Virus record (IMG/VR): IMGVR_UViG_3300025674_000361
Coordinates: 1 to 24,902 of that record
Direction: 5' to 3' (one strand)
DNA length: 24,902 nt
Origin: a virus
Position numbers and translations under genes: made by a program. Every line of letters begins with the position of its first letter. Within the stretch, counting starts at the first letter, position 1. Shown here one piece after another: positions 4,887 to 24,902 of the stretch. The notes below the pieces were generated by a model, which saw only the letters and a program-made list of their open reading frames with translations, was not told the origin of the DNA and ran no database searches.

Positions 4887-5665
4887 TATAGATCGTTTAA
4901 AATATTTAAAAGATTAGAATTGGTTGATTTTTTGGCTGTATCTGAAATAGCCTTATTTTGTGTTGATTGCTTTTTAACATTTAAATTAAAAGGCTTTTTT
5001 TCTTGTTTGGGTTGCTCTTCTTTATTATAATAGAATTGTTCAAATTCAATTCTAGCAGCCATCATATCTGCATGATGAATAATAATTGGAAGAGAGCTTT
5101 TAAATTTAGAGTCTGGTAAGAAGCTAATAAAGTATTTTTTATTTGCATCATCATAAAGTCCATCATGAGTTTGGATACAAACATATTCATTTTGAGTTAC
5201 TTTAATTCCGTAATCTTGTAATAAAAATAAGGAGCGATCTGGAATAGACATAAAATCTACTTCTGAGTTATGCTTATAATGTTCTCCAAGGTTCTTACGT
5301 CTCCATTGATCAGTCTGTTGAAGATACATTAAATTTTCCTTATCACCAATCTTACCTAAGTCATGATTGATAGCAGAAAATACTAACTCCTCTTCAGTAT
5401 AATCTTCTGTCCGGCATCCCATCTCTTGCCAAATTTTATTTAGCTTAAGAGCGCATTCTACCACTCGATTAACATGATCAACATATCCTCCTGGGAATGC
5501 GTTATGAAAAGAATCCTTATGAGAAGCTGGGTATAGTACAAGATCCTCTTCTCGTTCTTCATAAAAATTAATTAACTGTTGTTGTCTATCTCCAGTAATA
5601 TAATTTTTAATATTATCAATAAATGTATTCCAATTAGATTGTAGCTGTTCAGGTGTAAGATTCAT
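4886..5665 (-). CDS. HD-domain phosphohydrolase
   Basis: 259 residues. The HD-superfamily metal ligands are visible: H64 in GGYVDHVNRVVE, the paired H101-D102 in INHDLGKIGD, H167 in THDGLY, and the HHADMMAARIE block around 197-207. This order matches metal-dependent HD hydrolases, which cut nucleotides, cyclic nucleotides or, in the Cas3 group, single-stranded DNA. The specific substrate cannot be read from the sequence. Residues 215-259 form a low-complexity, Lys/Gln/Ser/Asn-rich tail. It is the first gene of an operon leading into the membrane protein and the late sigma factor, with its own promoter 13 bases upstream of the ATG. A role in nucleotide metabolism or in countering a nucleotide-signal defence would fit; neither is shown. 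Confidence 0.8.
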   Translation of the reverse strand: MNLTPEQLQSNWNTFIDNIKNYITGDRQQQLINFYEEREEDLVLYPASHKDSFHNAFPGGYVDHVNRVVECALKLNKIWQEMGCRTEDYTEEELVFSAINHDLGKIGDKENLMYLQQTDQWRRKNLGEHYKHNSEVDFMSIPDRSLFLLQDYGIKVTQNEYVCIQTHDGLYDDANKKYFISFLPDSKFKSSLPIIIHHADMMAARIEFEQFYYNKEEQPKQEKKPFNLNVKKQSTQNKAISDTAKKSTNSNLLNILNDL

Positions 5666-5678
5666 TTAATATATTTTT

Positions 5679-5710
5679 CTTAATATACGAAATAAATCTC
5701 AATAAAACAA
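5679..5710 (-). promoter_or_regulatory. Host-type promoter for the HD hydrolase / late sigma operon
   Basis: Reading leftward: TTG (5710-5708), a spacer of exactly 20 bases, then TATATTAAG (5687-5679), 13 bases before the ATG at 5665. The 13-mer TTCGTATATTAAG recurs exactly upstream of the bS21 gene (8435-8447). The layout resembles the Bacteroidota TTTG / TAnnTTTG promoter. Confidence 0.6.
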
Positions 5711-5746: not shown

Positions 5747-5992
5747 TTAGGGTTCACTTGGTGGTGATTTCCACTCACTACTTTCAACAATAGGCATTAT
5801 CTCTTCATGAGTGTATAAAGTTTTATTACTTATAGAATTAATAGTACTTGGCATATCCCCTTCATATTTCACAATTGCTTTATCTCCACTAACACTACGT
5901 ATTGTTGTTTCAATACTGGTTGTTAATAATTGACTATAATCAAGTAATGTTAAATCAGTTGTATTTATTATTACATAAGTTCTAGAGTCCAT
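5747..5992 (-). CDS. Small hypothetical protein coupled to the LamG virion gene
   Basis: 81 residues from the ATG at 5992 (MDSRTYVIINTTDL). An in-frame ATG at 6037 would add 15 residues, all inside the end of the preceding gene, and is less likely. With the 5992 start the overlap with the LamG gene is 11 nt. The protein looks like a compact beta-rich domain (YVIINTTDLTLLDYSQ, then DKAIVKYEGDMP) with an acidic helix ending in EWKSPP. No family recognised. Its coupling to a lectin-fold virion gene suggests a partner or chaperone for that protein; this is inference from position. Confidence 0.7.
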   Translation of the reverse strand: MDSRTYVIINTTDLTLLDYSQLLTTSIETTIRSVSGDKAIVKYEGDMPSTINSISNKTLYTHEEIMPIVESSEWKSPPSEP

Positions 5993-7016
5993 ATCTATCT
6001 TTTGTTGCGTTATAGTTTTGTAATGCCTCTGGTGCACTTAAAACTTTATCATATATTTTTACAGTAGAAATTCTCCCATCAAAATAAAATCCTGCTCTAT
6101 TTCCTCCCACAAATATATCGTTTGATGTTGCAAAATTTGTATTAGTTGCTGTTCCTTGAGCAAATAAACTACCATTTAAATACATTTTAGCACCATTTGC
6201 ATTAGTAGTTCCATCCCACATACAAACTAAATGATGCCATTGTCCTAAAGCAGGATAAGTACTTGAAATATTAACTATATAGGATATACCATTACTTATA
6301 ACAAAAACTAAATTAGTCCCATTACCAAATATATCAAAATCTCTTTGACTTTGAGATCCTCTAGTAGTTCCCTTAGTAATAATACCATCATTTTTGGTAT
6401 CTGTAGTATCGGCATAAAACCATAAATCTATTGATAGCGGAAAACTTTCAAGTATTGCAGGTTGTCCAAAATCAACCTGATCATCTACACCGTCAAATTG
6501 AAAATATCCTCCTTCAGATGTATTATATGCGGCACCGTTATTAATCTCTCCATTACTACCACTAATAACATCAGTCCATGTAGTTCCTGCTCCTGGATAG
6601 CTAAATAAATCTATTGCATCTACTCTAAAAATTAAACTATCAGTAACAATATCTTCAAATGGATACATCTTACTTGTATACATTCCGGTACCTCTTAACT
6701 TAAGTGCTGATGCTACTTCTGATGTATCTGATGGTGTAAAAACAAATGATGAGTTTCCTTCCGGAACCACTACACCAAATTTAAATTTATCTTTAACTAT
6801 ACCTATTTCTGTTATCTTAACTAAATCTGAAAACGATCCTGTTGCATAGCTTGTAGAGTTCTCAGGAATAAAACCAGTATTAATATCTTTACTAATATTT
6901 TGCTCTATAAAAAAATAAGCAGATCCACTAGGGTTTAAAAACTGAGTGGTAGTTGAACCTGTTAATGAGGTAACAATTACTCCATCAGATAATTGTTGAG
7001 GTGCGTAGGTTGCCAT
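5982..7016 (-). CDS. LamG / concanavalin-like lectin-fold virion protein
   Basis: 344 residues. Residues 1-125 form a beta-rich N-terminal part without a known match (MATYAPQQLSDGVIVTSL). Residues about 128-340 have the pattern of a laminin-G-type jelly roll: LIFRVDAIDLFSYPG with TTWTDVISG, then YFQFDGVDDQVDFG, LSIDLWFYAD, WHHLVCMWDG, KMYLNGSLFAQG, and FDGRISTVKIYDKVLS. These blocks are typical of Laminin_G_3-like domains that bind sugars on cell or virion surfaces. A surface decoration or fibre-tip role in host glycan binding is likely. No catalytic residues of a glycosidase are apparent. A candidate promoter lies directly before the ATG, so its transcript may be nearly leaderless. Confidence 0.8.
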   Translation of the reverse strand: MATYAPQQLSDGVIVTSLTGSTTTQFLNPSGSAYFFIEQNISKDINTGFIPENSTSYATGSFSDLVKITEIGIVKDKFKFGVVVPEGNSSFVFTPSDTSEVASALKLRGTGMYTSKMYPFEDIVTDSLIFRVDAIDLFSYPGAGTTWTDVISGSNGEINNGAAYNTSEGGYFQFDGVDDQVDFGQPAILESFPLSIDLWFYADTTDTKNDGIITKGTTRGSQSQRDFDIFGNGTNLVFVISNGISYIVNISSTYPALGQWHHLVCMWDGTTNANGAKMYLNGSLFAQGTATNTNFATSNDIFVGGNRAGFYFDGRISTVKIYDKVLSAPEALQNYNATKDRYGL

Positions 7017-7200: not shown

Positions 7201-7653
7201 TCAACTATTTTGTATAATATCTTGGATTTTTTTTAAAAAACCACACTTTTCATACTCTTCTACCGATTCGTAATAGTCTAAACAATCTAAAATATAAGCT
7301 TCTAAATTCTTTTCTGACCATAGCTTGATACTATCAATTACCATCTCATTATTAAGATCTAAATCCTGGATATGTCTAAATCTTAAAAGATTAAAAACAA
7401 CATCAAACTCTTGTTTATTATCATCAGTAATATCCATACCAGGGAACATAAAAAATACATCACCATCCGAATTATTATCAACTCCTCTCAAAGAATTTAA
7501 TAATTTAAATTCAGATAAACGAATAAACATCCCCAGTTTAAAAACAGGAGTATCTTCTCTAAATGTTTCAATATTATCATTTACAATTTCCTGCTCCTCA
7601 AAAGAGCCAGAATCTTGATTCTTAAAAAACTTAAAAAATCTATTCAGATCCAT
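7201..7653 (-). CDS. Small acidic hypothetical protein
   Basis: 150 residues from the ATG at 7653 (MDLNRFFKFFKNQ). The frame is open up to an ATG at 7698, but that codon lies inside the -33 box of the promoter at 7668-7698, so the shorter form is preferred. After a basic, aromatic N-terminal helix the protein is acidic and helical, with FKLGMFIRLSEFKLLNSL and a C-terminal stretch rich in Asp, Glu and Tyr (LDCLDYYESVEEYEKCG). No signal peptide, membrane segment or known motif. As the first leftward gene behind a host-type divergent promoter it is a candidate early protein; function unknown. Confidence 0.65.
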   Translation of the reverse strand: MDLNRFFKFFKNQDSGSFEEQEIVNDNIETFREDTPVFKLGMFIRLSEFKLLNSLRGVDNNSDGDVFFMFPGMDITDDNKQEFDVVFNLLRFRHIQDLDLNNEMVIDSIKLWSEKNLEAYILDCLDYYESVEEYEKCGFLKKIQDIIQNS

Positions 7654-7667
7654 AAATAACTTTATTA

Positions 7668-7698
7668 TAAAGATACGAAAAAAATACATAACAAACAA
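7668..7698 (-). promoter_or_regulatory. Leftward host-type promoter of the divergent pair
   Basis: Reading leftward: TTG (7698-7696), 20 bases ending in TTTCG, then TATCTTTA (7675-7668), 14 bases before the ATG at 7653. TATCTTTA differs from the Bacteroidota consensus TAnnTTTG by one base. Its TTG is one base away from the TTG of the rightward promoter. Confidence 0.6.
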
Positions 7699-7751: not shown

Positions 7752-7934
7752 ATGGCAAAAACAAACTCTTACGGCAATCTTCCGATTTCTATATTATTTA
7801 AAACTTCTAATAGGAAGAACGCTAGAACTAAAACTAAAACTTGGAAGAATAAAAATATAGATCAAATCTTATCTATGAAAAAGATACCAGGTATTCCTGA
7901 GAAAGCAATAATTTTAAAAATAAAGGTAGGATAA
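7752..7934 (+). CDS. Small basic hypothetical protein
   Basis: 60 residues, very rich in Lys, Arg, Asn and Thr in the middle (SNRKNARTKTKTWKNKN), with a short hydrophobic end (PEKAIILKIKV). The charge suggests nucleic-acid or ribosome binding, but no motif is recognised. It is the first gene behind the rightward divergent promoter, and its stop overlaps the start of the next gene by one base (TAATG). Promoter, coupling and a plausible start support a real gene; nothing points to a specific function. Confidence 0.6.
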   Translation: MAKTNSYGNLPISILFKTSNRKNARTKTKTWKNKNIDQILSMKKIPGIPEKAIILKIKVG

Positions 7935-8242
7935 TGAGTGAAAAAAGAGGAGATGTTGGAAAACTAATATATGATTTTAATCAATGTTGGTTAACTGAAG
8001 TTCAAAATAAAGAAGGAAGGTGGTATAGAACTACTTGTAGAATGTTTAGAAGCTGGGATGGTCCTAGAAGAATAAAAGAATCTACAAATATGTACGAATA
8101 TGATACCACTCAATTCCAGGATTATAATGGACCGCTTTATATGTACAACACCAATCTAGAAGTAGAACCTGATGGTAGATGCGATATAAGATGGGAACCT
8201 GGATATATTCATACACAATCACTTCATAGACATCGTAAGTGA
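7934..8242 (+). CDS. Hypothetical protein with Trp/Arg-rich N-terminal half
   Basis: 102 residues. The N-terminal half is rich in aromatic and basic residues (GRWYRTTCRMFRSWDGPRR). It is followed by FQDYNGPLYMYNTNLEV and an ending rich in His and Arg (HTQSLHRHRK). No membrane segment or signal peptide. The repeated WDGP / YNGP pattern suggests a small beta fold. It is translationally coupled to the upstream small gene (TAATG). A faint AGG precedes the ATG, one of few such sites in the window. No family recognised; a position among early genes suggests a regulatory or host-interaction role at most. Confidence 0.7.
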   Translation: MSEKRGDVGKLIYDFNQCWLTEVQNKEGRWYRTTCRMFRSWDGPRRIKESTNMYEYDTTQFQDYNGPLYMYNTNLEVEPDGRCDIRWEPGYIHTQSLHRHRK

Positions 8243-8253
8243 TATTTATAAAC

Positions 8254-8412
8254 ATGAATAGAGAGCAAATCAAACAAGCCATTAGAGAAGAAATAAAATC
8301 CATGCTACAGGAAAAAGCAACATGTTGCTATAAATGTGGACATGTTCATGTTAAAGGAACAGCTCATCCAACTCCATATAGAACAGGAAAAAATAACTGT
8401 AAATATAAATAA
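8254..8412 (+). CDS. 52-residue putative zinc-binding microprotein
   Basis: ATG at 8254, stop TAA ending at 8412. The N-terminal 21 residues form a charged helix (MNREQIKQAIREEIKSMLQE). The rest is a compact Cys/His-rich unit: CCYKCGHVHVKG, then HPTPYRTGKNNCKYK. The CxxC pair, the histidines and the late Cys could bind one zinc ion, as in small zinc ribbons. The motif TATTTATAAAC lies directly before the start. The density of Cys and His in an AT-rich genome argues that the short frame is real. The stop codon overlaps the first TATAAATA repeat upstream of the bS21 gene. Function unknown; nucleic-acid or ribosome binding is a reasonable guess given the neighbour. Confidence 0.65.
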   Translation: MNREQIKQAIREEIKSMLQEKATCCYKCGHVHVKGTAHPTPYRTGKNNCKYK

Positions 8413-8436
8413 TAGTTGGAGATATAAATAATAGTT
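8403..8436 (+). promoter_or_regulatory. Tandem TATAAATA elements upstream of the bS21 gene
   Basis: ATATAAATAATAGTT occurs twice, at 8403-8417 and 8422-8436, a perfect 15-base direct repeat with a 19-base period. Each copy holds TATAAATA, the exact T4 late-promoter -10 element, in the direction of the bS21 gene. They overlap the host-type promoter at 8416-8447. A late-promoter role is inferred from the T4 consensus. Confidence 0.45.
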
Positions 8437-8447
8437 CGTATATTAAG
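8416..8447 (+). promoter_or_regulatory. Host-type promoter of the bS21 gene
   Basis: TTG (8416-8418), exactly 20 bases, then TATATTAAG (8439-8447), 16 bases before the ATG at 8464. TTCGTATATTAAG is shared base for base with the promoter of the HD/late-sigma operon (5691-5679). Confidence 0.6.
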
Positions 8448-8463
8448 GTATAAAGTTTTTTAA

Positions 8464-8649
8464 ATGATTATTGTAAGAGTTAAAGATAGAGATATCGAAA
8501 AAGCTTTACGTCAGTACAAATATAAGCGATCAAGATCTAAACTTGATAGGGAGCTTATTGAACGTAAAGAATACACAAAACCGACAACTAGACGTCGTAG
8601 GCAGAAATTAAAGGCAATTAATAAAAATAAGTTTTTGAAAAATGATTAG
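8464..8649 (+). CDS. rpsU: Phage-encoded ribosomal protein bS21
   Basis: 61 residues, the normal length for bS21. The N-terminus MIIVRVKDRDIEKALRQYKY fits the bS21 pattern (beta start, then an IExALRxYK helix). It is followed by SRSKLDRELIERKEYTKPTTRR with the typical R-x-x-(E/Q)-x-x-x-KP element, then a basic tail (RRRQKLKAINKNK). bS21 sits on the small-subunit platform near the 3' end of 16S rRNA. In Bacteroidota it helps bury the anti-Shine-Dalgarno sequence. Phage copies are known and are thought to replace the host protein on ribosomes. Its stop overlaps the next gene by 8 nt. It has its own host-type promoter plus tandem TATAAATA elements, suggesting expression over a long part of infection. 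No strong Shine-Dalgarno is near the ATG. Confidence 0.85.
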   Translation: MIIVRVKDRDIEKALRQYKYKRSRSKLDRELIERKEYTKPTTRRRRQKLKAINKNKFLKND

Positions 8650-8971
8650 GTATAATACAAGAGAAGAATTTTGTGAAGGTCAAACAGCTATTTTTGATCC
8701 TAAAATTGAACCATTTTTTATAGTTAAAGGAAATAGTGGTGAATACTTAGTATGTGAAGAAACAACAACATCATCTGATCACCACCTATCTAATGGTGAA
8801 GATCGAACTGTAGTAAAAGTTCACTCCTACCCTTCAACCTTTAACAACGCATTAAGATCAATTGTACATAGAAAATCTGTTCAAGAAGGGAAGCATTATA
8901 ACAGCATCAATGAATACATTGAAAAGTTTGATGTTATTATGAATGACATGCGAAACTTAGTAAATTATTAA
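8642..8971 (+). CDS. Hypothetical protein coupled to bS21
   Basis: 109 residues, beginning inside the end of the bS21 gene (8-nt overlap), so probably translated together with it. The N-terminal half is beta-rich (QTAIFDPKIEPFFIVKGNSGEYLVCEE). The C-terminal half is helical with NNALRSIVHRKSVQEGKHYNSINEYIEKFD. No catalytic or metal-binding motif, signal peptide or membrane helix is evident. The coupling with a ribosomal protein raises the chance of a role in translation or host takeover, but this is inference from position. No family recognised. Confidence 0.7.
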   Translation: MIRYNTREEFCEGQTAIFDPKIEPFFIVKGNSGEYLVCEETTTSSDHHLSNGEDRTVVKVHSYPSTFNNALRSIVHRKSVQEGKHYNSINEYIEKFDVIMNDMRNLVNY

Positions 8972-9000: not shown

Positions 9001-9102
9001 TATGCAGAGTGAGAGTACACGCCTATCGAAGGAGATGGCTGATACTTAATTAGATATTTATTATCTAATATTAATAAAGGCGAGCTTATGCTCGCTTTTT
9101 TT
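9001..9102 (+). ncRNA. Structured untranslated RNA candidate ending in an intrinsic terminator
   Basis: The gap 8972-9126 holds no convincing gene but three stacked hairpins. First, GCC-U-AUC (9021-9027) pairs with GAUGGC (9034-9039) around a GAAGGA loop, extended by AGUA (9014-9017) with UACU (9043-9046). Second, a perfect 8-bp arm pair ATTAGATA / TATCTAAT (9049-9056 and 9062-9069). Third, the terminator at 9080-9102. A small palindrome CACTAAATAGTG (8986-8997) precedes it. This could be a small RNA, a 3' end structure of the bS21 unit, or a leader for the tail genes. It fits no tRNA or riboswitch that I recognise. Folding was judged by eye. Confidence 0.4.
9080..9102 (+). terminator. Intrinsic terminator
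   Basis: A perfect 6-bp GC-rich stem GCGAGC / GCTCGC (9080-9085 and 9090-9095) with loop TTAT is followed directly by seven T residues (9096-9102). It closes the bS21 / small-gene unit and separates it from the tail genes. It is the only strong intrinsic terminator that I found in the window. Confidence 0.85.
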
Positions 9103-9126: not shown

Positions 9127-10287
9127 GTGGGCGTTTATAAATTTTTTCCAACAAAAGATGCTTCTTTATATTCATATCACCCATCTAGATCTGCTGGTAT
9201 AGATGAGATGCTAGAGGTATATAACGAAAACAACATAACTGTTTCTCCTCAAGTAGCTAGATACGTTGTTCAATTCGATCAAACAGATATTAATAATTTT
9301 ATCTCAACCAACAGTGCTACCTCTTCTTTAGCATTTTCTTTAAGAAACTACATAGCATATGCTGATGGATTTAATTTAGATACAAAATTATACATTTATC
9401 CAGTATCTGGATCATGGGAAAATGGAACAGGAAAATTTGCTGATTCTCCCGAAACAACAAATGGTGTAAGCTGGCTATTTAGAGATTATGCAGATGGTAC
9501 CTCCTGGAACTTTGCTAGTAACCCCTACACTACACAATCATACGATCCCACATATACTAGTGAAGGAGGAGGAGTATGGTTTACAGGCTCAGCAGATGGA
9601 AAGCAACTAGAAGTAACACAATCTTTTTCACTAAGATCCTCAAAAGATATCAACGTAAGTGTAACAGATATTGGATTAGCATGGTATAGTAGCTCTAATT
9701 CAATAGGATCTGATACTGATATTCAAAATAATGGGTTTTTAATAAAACTTGACAATAGTGTAGAATTTAACACCTCTCAATCAATATCACCTCAATCTAA
9801 ATTTTTTAGCGTAGATACCAATACAATATATCCACCAGCATTAGAATTAAAATGGAAAGACTTTTTAAATACTAGCTCAGGGTCAACCAAACAAACAATA
9901 ACCTCAGTAACCGAGGAATTCTCCCTCTCCTTAAGAGAGCAACCAACTGAAATAATGCCCGATAGTGTTGTAAAGTTTAAAATAGATGTACGAGAGAAAT
10001 ACCCCACTAGAGCATATAACACTATACTTGACGATACTCTAAATAAATACTTCCTACCTCTAACATCTTATTACGCTATACAAGATGTAGATACAAATGA
10101 ATATATAATTGATTTCGATACAACATACACACAAATATCAAGAGATCAAAACCACAGCTATTTTAATCTATATATGAATGGATTCGAACCTGAAAGGTAT
10201 TATAAAGTATTAGTTAAATCAGTATTTAATAATCAAACCTATATATATGATGATAAGTTATATTTTAAGGTTGTAAATAATATATAA
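9127..10287 (+). CDS. Virion (tail/baseplate) protein, first of the structural operon
   Basis: 386 residues from GTG at 9127. The frame is open to an ATG at 9088, but that codon lies in the loop of the terminator hairpin, so it cannot head this transcription unit if termination works there. The protein opens with GVYKFFPTKDASLYSYHPSR, then VARYVVQFDQTDINNF. A middle part is rich in Gly, Ser, Trp and Asp (SGSWENGTGKFADSP, GVSWLFRDYADG), reminiscent of DNRLRE-type beta domains found in bacterial and phage surface proteins. The C-terminal half is beta-rich with REQPTEIMPDSVVKFKIDVRE. No enzyme motif. Six virion genes follow closely in the same direction, which supports a tail or baseplate role. 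Confidence 0.65.
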   Translation: MGVYKFFPTKDASLYSYHPSRSAGIDEMLEVYNENNITVSPQVARYVVQFDQTDINNFISTNSATSSLAFSLRNYIAYADGFNLDTKLYIYPVSGSWENGTGKFADSPETTNGVSWLFRDYADGTSWNFASNPYTTQSYDPTYTSEGGGVWFTGSADGKQLEVTQSFSLRSSKDINVSVTDIGLAWYSSSNSIGSDTDIQNNGFLIKLDNSVEFNTSQSISPQSKFFSVDTNTIYPPALELKWKDFLNTSSGSTKQTITSVTEEFSLSLREQPTEIMPDSVVKFKIDVREKYPTRAYNTILDDTLNKYFLPLTSYYAIQDVDTNEYIIDFDTTYTQISRDQNHSYFNLYMNGFEPERYYKVLVKSVFNNQTYIYDDKLYFKVVNNI

Positions 10288-21008: not shown

Positions 21009-21772
21009 GTATTTTAAAAAAATCTTATAATAGATTATTAGAAATTTCCGACGATCACAAGCAAATTACTTTAAAGGATTCTCGGTTTTATCAAAGAAAT
21101 GGTGAATATTATCCATCAGTTACTTATGTTTTAGGATGTTATCCAAAAGGAAAGCATTTTGAAGATTGGTTAAAAAGAGTTGGATACTCTGCCGATTATA
21201 TCGTTAAAAAAGCTGGAGAGCAAGGTACTCAAGTGCATGATCTATGTGAAAGATACTTAAAAGGTGAAGAAATAAGATACTTTGCTGAGTTTTCAACTCC
21301 TTTATATGAACCATTAGTATGGGAAATGTTCTTAAGATTTGTTGAATTTTGGGAAACTTTTAAGCCTACTCTAATAGAAACAGAGGTATTTTTATTTACA
21401 GATAAGATGAAAGTAGCCGGAACCTGTGATTTAGTAGTAGAAATTAATGGAGAGAGATGGATACTTGATATTAAGACATCTAATACGATTGCATCTACTT
21501 ACGAACTACAAACAGCTATTTATAAAGAAATGTATGAAGAGTGTTATGGTAAAGAAATTCATAGAACTGGTATCTTATGGTTAAAATCCAGTAAGAGAGG
21601 TCCTAGGAAAGATAAGTTTCAAGGGAAAGGATGGGAGATTATTGAAAGTAAACGCTCATTTGAAGATAATATAGAAATCTACAAATGTGTTAAGAAGCTT
21701 TTTGATATAGAAAATCCTAAACCAGAACCATTAATGAAAAAATTAAATACTGTAATAAAACAAAGTGAATAG
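21005..21772 (+). CDS. PD-(D/E)XK nuclease, RecB/Cas4-type exonuclease
   Basis: 255 residues. The active-site pattern is complete: H78 in QGTQVHDLCERYL, acidic residues E125 and E127 (LIETEVFLF), D142 in AGTCDLVVE, D155-x-K157 in WILDIKTSN, and Q169 and Y173 in ELQTAIYKEMYEE. This order matches the RecB-like branch that includes Cas4 and phage exonucleases. No four-cysteine iron-sulfur cluster set is visible, which separates it from classical Cas4. The likely role is single- or double-strand DNA end resection in recombination or in breakdown of host DNA. It starts within the primase stop (ATGA) and its end overlaps the GTG start of the next gene by 8 nt. Confidence 0.85.
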   Translation: MSILKKSYNRLLEISDDHKQITLKDSRFYQRNGEYYPSVTYVLGCYPKGKHFEDWLKRVGYSADYIVKKAGEQGTQVHDLCERYLKGEEIRYFAEFSTPLYEPLVWEMFLRFVEFWETFKPTLIETEVFLFTDKMKVAGTCDLVVEINGERWILDIKTSNTIASTYELQTAIYKEMYEECYGKEIHRTGILWLKSSKRGPRKDKFQGKGWEIIESKRSFEDNIEIYKCVKKLFDIENPKPEPLMKKLNTVIKQSE

Positions 21773-24700
21773 TCTTTCTCAATTTTTAGTAGAGTCCATT
21801 ATGGATGAAAAAGGAACGATAGTTTCTTATGGTGGAGGATTTAAACCACCACATAAAGGACATTTTAATGTAATCAAAAGGATGATTGAAAAATATCCTG
21901 ATGCAGAAGTATATAACATCTTTGTTGGTAGTAAAGATAGAGGTGGTATTACACAACAAGATGCATTAGATATTTGGAAAATTTATAAAAAATATTTAAG
22001 TCCAAAAGTATCAGTAAGACAATCACAAATACCTATTAGTGATGTATATAGTTCAGCTAAAGAAAATCCAGATAAAAATGTAATTTTTGCAGCAGGATCT
22101 AGAGGAGAAGAAGACGATAAAGAATTATTAGGTAGACTTACATCATATCACAAGTATGATAATCTACAGTTAGATGTTGTTAGAGATCAAGGTGGTATTT
22201 CTGCTACTCAGTTAAGAAATGCTAATCCTGATGAATTAGCTAGCTTTTTTCCGGATGAATTATCTGATGAAGATTTAGAAATAGTAACAAATATAGCTTT
22301 AGGAGTTAATGAAGATACAACACGAACTACAAAAAAAGGAGCTCCTGGTACATTTAAAGCAAAAATTACAAAAGCTTATGGTGGACCTGTTACTATAGAA
22401 AAGGCTAAGAAATTTAAAAATAGAAAAGGGGCTACTGCTCATGATAAATCACAAGCAAATTGGTTTATTAACATGCATAGTGCTAAAGAAGGGTTTGATC
22501 CTAAACTAGGAAAAGATCCTTATGGTATTTCTCAATATTCTAGAGAGATTATGGAAGCTAAAAAAGCAGCTGATATGGATCCTCTCTTTATAAAAGATAT
22601 TGAAAAAAATTACGGTGAAGTTGATTTAGAAAATGATTACTTTAATGATGAATTAACTCGTTATTATAAAACAACTGATATAAATAAAGAAACAGGAGGT
22701 GTAACCCACGATGTTATTAATCTTCCTTCATTTAAAGATTCTTTTGATAAACTAAAATCAGCTTATCTTTCATTTAAACAACTACAAACAGCTAAACAAG
22801 TATCAAATGATCAGAAGTTTCCTGAGTTAGTTGATAAAGTTAAAGATGCTTTTAATAAATATCGCACACATTTACGTACAAAATACCCTTCTCAGTACAA
22901 AACTATTAAAGAAGAAGTAGATAAAATGGTAAATTTCCTTAGTGAAGGTGTTTATGATTCTATTACTACAAAAGTTTCTAGCGATATATTTAATGCTTGG
23001 AAAGAATTTCATGATAAATATCCTGATCAAGAAGAATTTATCTATCAGAATGAATATGAGTTGCAAGATAAAAAAGGCCGTGATATGGATTTTGAACTTC
23101 AAGCAAAAATTGTATTCAAAGAAACAGAAGAAGGTATTTATAGTGTAGATGGAGGGGCAGAAGAAGGAGATGAAGATATTCAAGGAGAGCTTACTGTAAT
23201 ATTCCAAGTAGATCCAAGAGATTTACCCAATATGTGGTCTACTATCTCAATGGATCTTAAAGATGTAGTTAGACACGAAATAGAACATTTATCTCAAAGA
23301 GGATATAATGTTGTTTATAGTAAAGAAATGGAAGATAATAGAGCATTAAGAGCTCTTATAAAAGCAAAATTACTACCAGATAAAGAATATTATAAGTTAG
23401 AGGATGAAATTCCTGCAATGCTGCAAGGAATGTACTTTAAAGCTAAAAAAGTAAAACAACCTCTAAAAGATGTAATTAAAGACTACTTTGATAAAGTACA
23501 ATTATCTAAAGAGGATCGTAAAGAAATCATTGCTCTCTGGAAAAAATATTTACCTTCCTTATCCTTACCACCTATTCAAGAATCTAAACAAATAAGCGAA
23601 GATTTTCCTTTAAGTTTTGATAGAGTTGAATATTATAAAAATCACATTTCTAATGTTATTCCACCAACTGTAGAAGTAATTAGAGAGGGAGATAAATTAA
23701 TAGTAGATGGTATTTATAATTCTTATCCACCCAACTATATGCAAAATCTCACAAAAGAGATTAATGATAAAATGCAAGCAGAGGAAAAAATATCATTAAA
23801 AAAAAGTATTGATAACAATATTTTAGATAATTTTTTAGATTTTTGTTGTAAAAAACTTGGTATTTCTGATAATTTTTTCGTATCTTTACATAGTAATAGG
23901 GATAAACTACAAACTTTAGCTCAATATAATCTAGTAGATAATTCTATAGATGTATATGTGAAGGATAGATTAATGGCTGATATTTTAAGAAGTATAGCAC
24001 ACGAATTAGTACACCATCAACAACTTGAAAATGGTGATATTGATTTAAATAATATGCCACAAGATATTGGCGGACCTATTGAAGACGAAGCTAATGCAGT
24101 AGCCGGTCAATTAGTTAAAGAATTCGGTTACGATAATCCAGAAATCTTTGAAAATATAGATCCTAAAGCTCAGAAAAAGCATCAAAAGAATCCAACAGCA
24201 GTACCTTTTGGTTCTGCCTATTCTCCTGTTAAAGAAGACGGTAAAGAGGTATCGGACAAAAATATGGATGATTATAAAAAATCAAACATAAAAGAAAATA
24301 AAGATAAACCTAAAGCTATCTTCATGGCAGGACCTGCTGGATCCGGTAAATCGTATATTTTAAATAAATTAGGAATACAAGGATTTACTACTATTAATAT
24401 AGATGATGAATTTGAAGAGCTTTTAAAGAAAGAAATAGGTAAAAGTAGATTTTCAGATATGTCACCTGAAGAACTTTCACAAGCAGCAAAGTTAATGGGT
24501 CAAGCAAGAAAAACTACATCAGCTAAATTAGATAAAGCAAGAGAATCTTTAACTAATGTTATAATTGATGGAACAGGAGCAGCTTCTAATCCTATTCTTA
24601 AGAAGAAAAAACAATTTGAAGATCTAGGATATGAAACATTTATGATTTTAATTTATGTTTCTCCTATTACTTCATTAATGAGAAACAAAGGTAGAGATAG

Positions 24701-24902
24701 AAGTTTACCACCTAGTGCTATTTTACATACCTGGAAAGGAGTAGCACAAAATATGGAGATCTATAAAAAAGAGTTTGGAGATAATATTGTTTTAATTAAT
24801 AATGATCCTGAAGGAGCAGATAAAACATTTGATGATCCACAAGAGATAATGAAACAATTTCCATCTCCTAAAGGTAAACCAAAAACACCAGAAGAAATAG
24901 AA
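21765..24902 (+). CDS. Multi-domain candidate internal head protein: nucleotidyltransferase, two HExxH proteases, P-loop kinase (partial)
   Basis: At least 1046 residues, open to the right edge. I chose GTG at 21765, which overlaps the nuclease gene by 8 nt, because its first residues (MNSLSQFLVES) resemble the cleaved N-terminal peptide of T4 internal proteins (MKTYQEFIAEA). ATG at 21801 is the alternative. Domains: residues 19-180, a cytidylyltransferase/NMNAT-like domain with H30-x-G-H33 (FKPPHKGHFN) and ISATQLR (145-151); residues 184-300, a basic segment (KKGAPGTFKAKITKAYGG) with no clear family; residues 395-600, HEIEH at 504-508 with E548 as possible third zinc ligand; residues 613-800, HELVH at 746-750 with E775 (EDEANAVAG); residues 850 onward, a zeta-toxin/polynucleotide-kinase-like domain with GPAGSGKS (856-863) and VIIDGTG (D935). 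Candidate (L/I)xE cleavage sites lie at 8-10, 392-394, 604-606, 610-612 and 842-844. Substrates unknown; packaging and cleavage are inferred. Confidence 0.8.
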   Translation, partial: MNSLSQFLVESIMDEKGTIVSYGGGFKPPHKGHFNVIKRMIEKYPDAEVYNIFVGSKDRGGITQQDALDIWKIYKKYLSPKVSVRQSQIPISDVYSSAKENPDKNVIFAAGSRGEEDDKELLGRLTSYHKYDNLQLDVVRDQGGISATQLRNANPDELASFFPDELSDEDLEIVTNIALGVNEDTTRTTKKGAPGTFKAKITKAYGGPVTIEKAKKFKNRKGATAHDKSQANWFINMHSAKEGFDPKLGKDPYGISQYSREIMEAKKAADMDPLFIKDIEKNYGEVDLENDYFNDELTRYYKTTDINKETGGVTHDVINLPSFKDSFDKLKSAYLSFKQLQTAKQVSNDQKFPELVDKVKDAFNKYRTHLRTKYPSQYKTIKEEVDKMVNFLSEGVYDSITTKVSSDIFNAWKEFHDKYPDQEEFIYQNEYELQDKKGRDMDFELQAKIVFKETEEGIYSVDGGAEEGDEDIQGELTVIFQVDPRDLPNMWSTISMDLKDVVRHEIEHLSQRGYNVVYSKEMEDNRALRALIKAKLLPDKEYYKLEDEIPAMLQGMYFKAKKVKQPLKDVIKDYFDKVQLSKEDRKEIIALWKKYLPSLSLPPIQESKQISEDFPLSFDRVEYYKNHISNVIPPTVEVIREGDKLIVDGIYNSYPPNYMQNLTKEINDKMQAEEKISLKKSIDNNILDNFLDFCCKKLGISDNFFVSLHSNRDKLQTLAQYNLVDNSIDVYVKDRLMADILRSIAHELVHHQQLENGDIDLNNMPQDIGGPIEDEANAVAGQLVKEFGYDNPEIFENIDPKAQKKHQKNPTAVPFGSAYSPVKEDGKEVSDKNMDDYKKSNIKENKDKPKAIFMAGPAGSGKSYILNKLGIQGFTTINIDDEFEELLKKEIGKSRFSDMSPEELSQAAKLMGQARKTTSAKLDKARESLTNVIIDGTGAASNPILKKKKQFEDLGYETFMILIYVSPITSLMRNKGRDRSLPPSAILHTWKGVAQNMEIYKKEFGDNIVLINNDPEGADKTFDDPQEIMKQFPSPKGKPKTPEEIE

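Follow-up and report, generated by a model that had tools for sequence, protein, structure and literature searches.

The window, by which we mean the whole 24,902-nt (24.9-kb) stretch analysed here, is in its entirety an IMG/VR virus record, and it carries on its plus strand, at 8464–8649, an open reading frame (ATG...TAG, 61 aa) for a ribosomal protein of the bS21 family. It is syntenic with Flavobacterium phage vB_FspM_immuto (MW353175, Immutovirus), to which most of its genes match in similar order, with identities of 52% for an HD-type protein, 72% for one tail protein and 44% for the primase. The window is a tail/baseplate region from an immuto-related myovirus, and we infer a flavobacterium-like host. 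Annotation recognised no TerL, portal or MCP within the 25 kb, in which many proteins are without a family match, and no tRNAs were found. Outside the bS21 region, the window encodes on the plus strand (21765–24902) a multi-domain protein whose immuto relative is annotated as an NMN adenylyltransferase (NadR) and whose C-terminal part matches a Zeta-toxin/AAA kinase (E 1.9e-9), and on the minus strand (5982–7016) a LamG-type (Laminin_G_3) domain protein, a possible adhesin; at this position L002, a second IMG/VR contig, encodes a shorter product of 125 aa.

The bS21 gene sits in a cassette of small plus-strand genes. Two genes of unknown function (60 and 102 aa; 7752–8242), conserved in L002 and in the related contig L305, show omega values of 0.033 and 0.122, and they are followed, immediately upstream of bS21, by a variable, cysteine-containing gene of 52 aa (8254–8412), in whose place relatives carry a gene of 99–104 aa with a similar N-terminus. 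On the other side lies a 109-aa gene, also of unknown function (8642–8971; omega 0.062), the start of which shares 8 bases with the end of bS21; this overlap is kept in L002, and translational coupling of the two genes is possible. The cassette is closed, ahead of the tail operon, by an intrinsic-terminator-like hairpin (9076–9099, plus strand) with a 10-bp stem, a 4-nt loop and a T run, one of five terminator-like sites found in the region against 0.6 expected. Around this terminator, a search for structured RNA (Rfam) returned sub-threshold matches only. An open reading frame start at 9088 falls inside this hairpin, and the GTG at 9127 is the likelier start of the tail gene, as in L002 and L305.

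The leader of the bS21 gene (8435–8463, plus strand) is devoid of a Shine-Dalgarno (SD) site and holds a promoter-like sequence, TTCGTATATTAA, which starts 29 nt ahead of the ATG and is conserved in L002 and L304. An exact copy of it precedes the minus-strand gene at 5665, and a variant, TTCGTATCTTTA, precedes the gene at 7653; allowing up to two mismatches, this type of motif occurs 21 times against 9.5 expected. A TTCGTAT[AC]TT motif is found at 5680–5691 (minus), 7668–7679 (minus) and 8435–8446 (plus) in the window, at 1941 and 2795 in L304 and at 2977 in L305, approximately 15–30 nt ahead of several genes, among them the 109-aa gene in phages without bS21. This motif, which resembles an extended Bacteroidota -7 element, is probably a phage promoter; a sigma-70 promoter scan performed at chance level.

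Related phages differ in whether they carry the bS21 gene at all. The L002 cassette is arranged as in the window (60-aa gene, 102-aa gene, variable gene, bS21, 109-aa gene), whereas L305 and L306, whose flanking proteins are 89–94% identical, retain the 109-aa gene and are missing bS21 between the same neighbours. No bS21 was found in the whole 160-kb immuto genome, nor in any of 50 immuto-like records, all of them fragments and many short. Because the gene is absent at the same site in L305 and L306 and genome-wide in immuto, bS21 is, by this comparison of sequences, an accessory gene gained or lost within the lineage.

Several lines of evidence identify the 61-aa product as a genuine bS21. 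It scores 34.7 bits against PF01165 (Ribosomal_S21), above the cutoff of 27 (E 1.5e-8; profile positions 2–54 of 55), and matches PHROG 21469 'ribosomal protein S21' (E 8e-7) and, among solved ribosome structures, bS21 chains led by 9i5v (E 8e-5) and including Flavobacterium 7jil (E 1e-3). It retains M1, A15, L16, K20, K22, K40, R46, K51 and A52, which hardly vary among 99 flavobacterial and viral bS21 sequences, as well as I12, also counted among the near-invariant positions of the family. An AlphaFold model predicts three helices at moderate confidence (mean pLDDT 75, pTM 0.36); with this moderate model, the top Foldseek match came from a 30S complex (chain U, E 0.13; VIA Z 5.0, rmsd 3.9), and the top BFVD matches were phage S21 proteins (E 4e-3). 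A chance open reading frame was ruled out by the L002 protein, which is 93% identical to that of the window at dS 0.75 and dN 0.035, and the resulting omega of 0.046 indicates strong purifying selection. The earlier note, made from the sequence alone, had taken the stretch for phage DNA and its 61-residue product for bS21; the virus record and immuto synteny bear out the former, and the Pfam, PHROG and PDB-chain matches the latter.

A phylogeny against host bS21, proposed in the same note, placed the window protein inside a phage bS21 clade that is nested among flavobacterial sequences (support 95/90 in a 17-row set; 96/73 for the phage-only fork), in a tree that is weak, with 64 columns and a long branch for the window protein (1.46). 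Sequence at the bS21 C-terminus varies. An origin from a non-flavobacterial Bacteroidota bS21 with Arg54 (such as L232) was rejected, the window protein falling outside that clade. Some flavobacterial genomes (L284, L285, L287 and L288) contain a second bS21 gene, with Tyr54 retained and mostly without a strong SD, a possible sign of host-side ribosome heterogeneity or of a phage-derived copy. One viral-contig bS21 with His54 (L099) is near-identical to host bS21 (L260/L274) and may represent a misclassified bacterial contig.

What sets the window protein apart is a change at the residue that, in Bacteroidia, ties bS21 to the anti-SD end of 16S rRNA. The F. johnsoniae protein stacks its Tyr54 on A1534, steering the 16S tail into a pocket formed by bS21, bS18 and bS6, and a Y54A mutation raises translation of strong-SD messages approximately 3-fold while SD-less reporters remain about normal in vivo (PMC9976891). 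Column mapping equates Asn53, Asn55 and Ile32 of the window protein with Tyr54, Gln56 and Arg33 of F. johnsoniae, so that in F. johnsoniae numbering the changes are Y to N at 54, Q to N at 56, R to I at 33 and F to R at 23. Among 51 flavobacterial and 47 other viral sequences compared by column, position 54 was aromatic throughout (Y/H/F in 51 of 51, and Y/H in 47 of 47, respectively), as it is in every phage and bacterial bS21 of the set of Chen et al. 2022 (PMC9723584). Across 134 viral bS21 entries, which comprise 52 distinct sequences and include contigs retrieved repeatedly by different scans, Tyr is found in 129, His in one, Met in one, Lys in one and Asn in two; the Met and Lys copies (L398, L399) belong to another bS21 type, and the two Asn copies are the window and L002. 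Tyr54 is present in all 80 Flavobacterium bS21 sequences, and the broader Flavobacteriales have Tyr, His or Phe, save for two divergent Leu copies from one genome (L296/L297) that look like contamination; Arg occupies the position in many other Bacteroidota sampled. The aromatic required of an anti-SD-sequestering Bacteroidia bS21 is thus absent from the window and L002 proteins. Sequencing error was rejected as the source of Asn, which both contigs carry despite a dS of 0.75, as was substitution by a C-terminal Phe, given that L003 and L010 have Tyr plus a nearby Phe and that K51-A52 fix the register. Since the window protein nests in a phage clade within flavobacterial bS21, Tyr54 was probably lost, a derived state rather than an ancestral lack. 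Other residues could hold the 16S tail.

Start sites in the window lack SD sequences. An SD core (AGGA, GGAG or GAGG) was found at none of 23 chosen window starts, which therefore include no SD-bearing phage message, and the mean anti-SD duplex at these starts was weaker than background (-0.87 versus -1.84 kcal/mol); adenine is enriched at -12, -10 and -3. The identical script recovered the core at 32 of 52 starts in T4 (z -10) and at one of 61 in immuto. The bS21 gene follows the same pattern, its leader forming a duplex of -4.0 kcal/mol; the strong SD ahead of the gene, a feature of bS21 autoregulation in Bacteroidia, was not found there, and 14 sampled Flavobacterium rpsU leaders have strong SDs of about -21 kcal/mol. 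Two premises of the earlier note, a near-total lack of SD sites at window starts and a part for Bacteroidia bS21 in hiding the anti-SD (PMC9976891), are therefore sound.

The conclusion drawn from them, that phage bS21 would bias ribosomes toward SD-less messages by hiding the anti-SD, fares less well. In its fuller form, this explanation has the phage protein preserve or reinforce the hiding of the anti-SD, with the result that SD-less phage messages are translated in preference to those of the host, and it can draw on the two premises just given and on the proposal by Chen et al. that phage bS21 serves selection of phage transcripts (PMC9723584). However, the clamp residue is Asn in both the window and L002; the bulk of host messages is SD-less as well (PMC9976891), and such a bias would not separate phage from host; immuto is just as SD-less without any bS21; and L305 and L306 lack the gene at the same site. 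Since immuto dispenses with the gene, bS21 and SD-less starts are not linked in this lineage, and together these points leave the hiding bias unsupported and, in our estimation, quite unlikely.

We consider it probable instead that the window encodes an exchangeable phage bS21, outside host SD control, which joins the 30S subunits of the host and clamps the anti-SD less firmly. On this account, the gene is an accessory bS21 of an Immutovirus-related myovirus, descended from a Bacteroidota bS21 via a phage lineage, and its product would replace the loosely bound host bS21 on the 30S, keeping ribosomes bS21-replete for phage protein production. Because the phage gene has no strong SD, it would escape autoregulation of the rpsU type, being made by ordinary bS21-replete ribosomes and unrepressed by its own product. 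Because the Tyr54 and Gln56 elements of the clamp are gone, the 16S tail would be held less tightly, and ribosomes with the phage protein would be expected to accept SD messages more readily rather than less. Incorporation has a precedent in the bS21 of Pelagibacter phage HTVC008M, which entered E. coli ribosomes; the resulting ribosomes were approximately 5% active in vitro (PMC6375957), which counts against this explanation, as do the variable bS21 C-terminus, the long branch of the window protein, the moderate AlphaFold model and the chance that other residues hold the tail.

The same near-inactivity would fit a mainly extra-ribosomal or decoy role, in which the protein would bind RNA, or compete with its host counterpart, and no active 30S would be made, and the conserved positions altered in the window protein (R33I, F23R, Q56N) point the same way; the retained near-invariant core and the constraint on the gene argue against such a role, which we regard as the least likely of the explanations weighed. 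A bolder alternative is that a loss-of-clamp bS21 was selected in order to free the 16S tail in infected cells, either opening SD–anti-SD pairing for particular messages or making the tail accessible to a phage factor. Loss of the aromatic under strong purifying selection, with Asn kept in L002, and the Y54A phenotype (PMC9976891) speak for it, but the window offers no SD-bearing phage messages to profit, freed tails would raise host rpsU and hence host bS21, and no partner factor has been identified. We therefore hold this alternative unlikely, if slightly less so than a hiding bias, and give equally small credence to its strongest form, that phage bS21 evolved to switch off anti-SD hiding and that infected flavobacterial ribosomes become SD-responsive or tail-exposed. 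Our preferred reading remains a replacement bS21 whose clamp is probably weakened.

The literature already covers phage bS21, its aquatic prevalence and its occurrence in phages of Bacteroidetes, as well as the notion of ribosome takeover (PMC6375957, PMC9723584, PMC9976891); as far as the literature was searched, what is new is a non-aromatic bS21 in a flavobacterial-type phage together with its presence and absence among close relatives. The leading published idea for Bacteroidetes-phage bS21 depends on a retained anti-SD-hiding aromatic, and the window lineage supplies a natural counter-example, with a constrained phage bS21 that lacks the aromatic and close relatives in which the same site has no bS21 gene. 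Asn versus Tyr, and gene present versus absent, thereby offer a ready comparison for whether anti-SD handling explains phage bS21. Like the Bacteroidetes myoviruses of Chen et al. 2022 (PMC9723584), which are large and encode bS21 near structural genes, the window phage has its copy beside tail/baseplate genes; unlike theirs, which has Tyr, His or Phe at position 54 and lies by TerL, portal and MCP on the opposite strand, the window copy has Asn and lies in a small-gene cassette, co-directional with the following tail operon. HTVC008M (Mizuno 2019, PMC6375957) likewise has a bS21 that lacks the Bacteroidia tyrosine, its gene having a small hypothetical one after it, but that protein is alphaproteobacterial in type and host and 36% identical to the window protein by alignment. 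The F. johnsoniae protein (7jil; McNutt 2023, PMC9976891) belongs to the same family (31% identity by alignment) and shares the core residues, whereas its gene, rpsU, has Tyr54, Gln56 and a strong autoregulatory SD, none of which the phage gene possesses. Finally, immuto shares related virion and replication genes (24–72% identity), a similar gene order and SD-less starts with the window, and differs from it in having no bS21.
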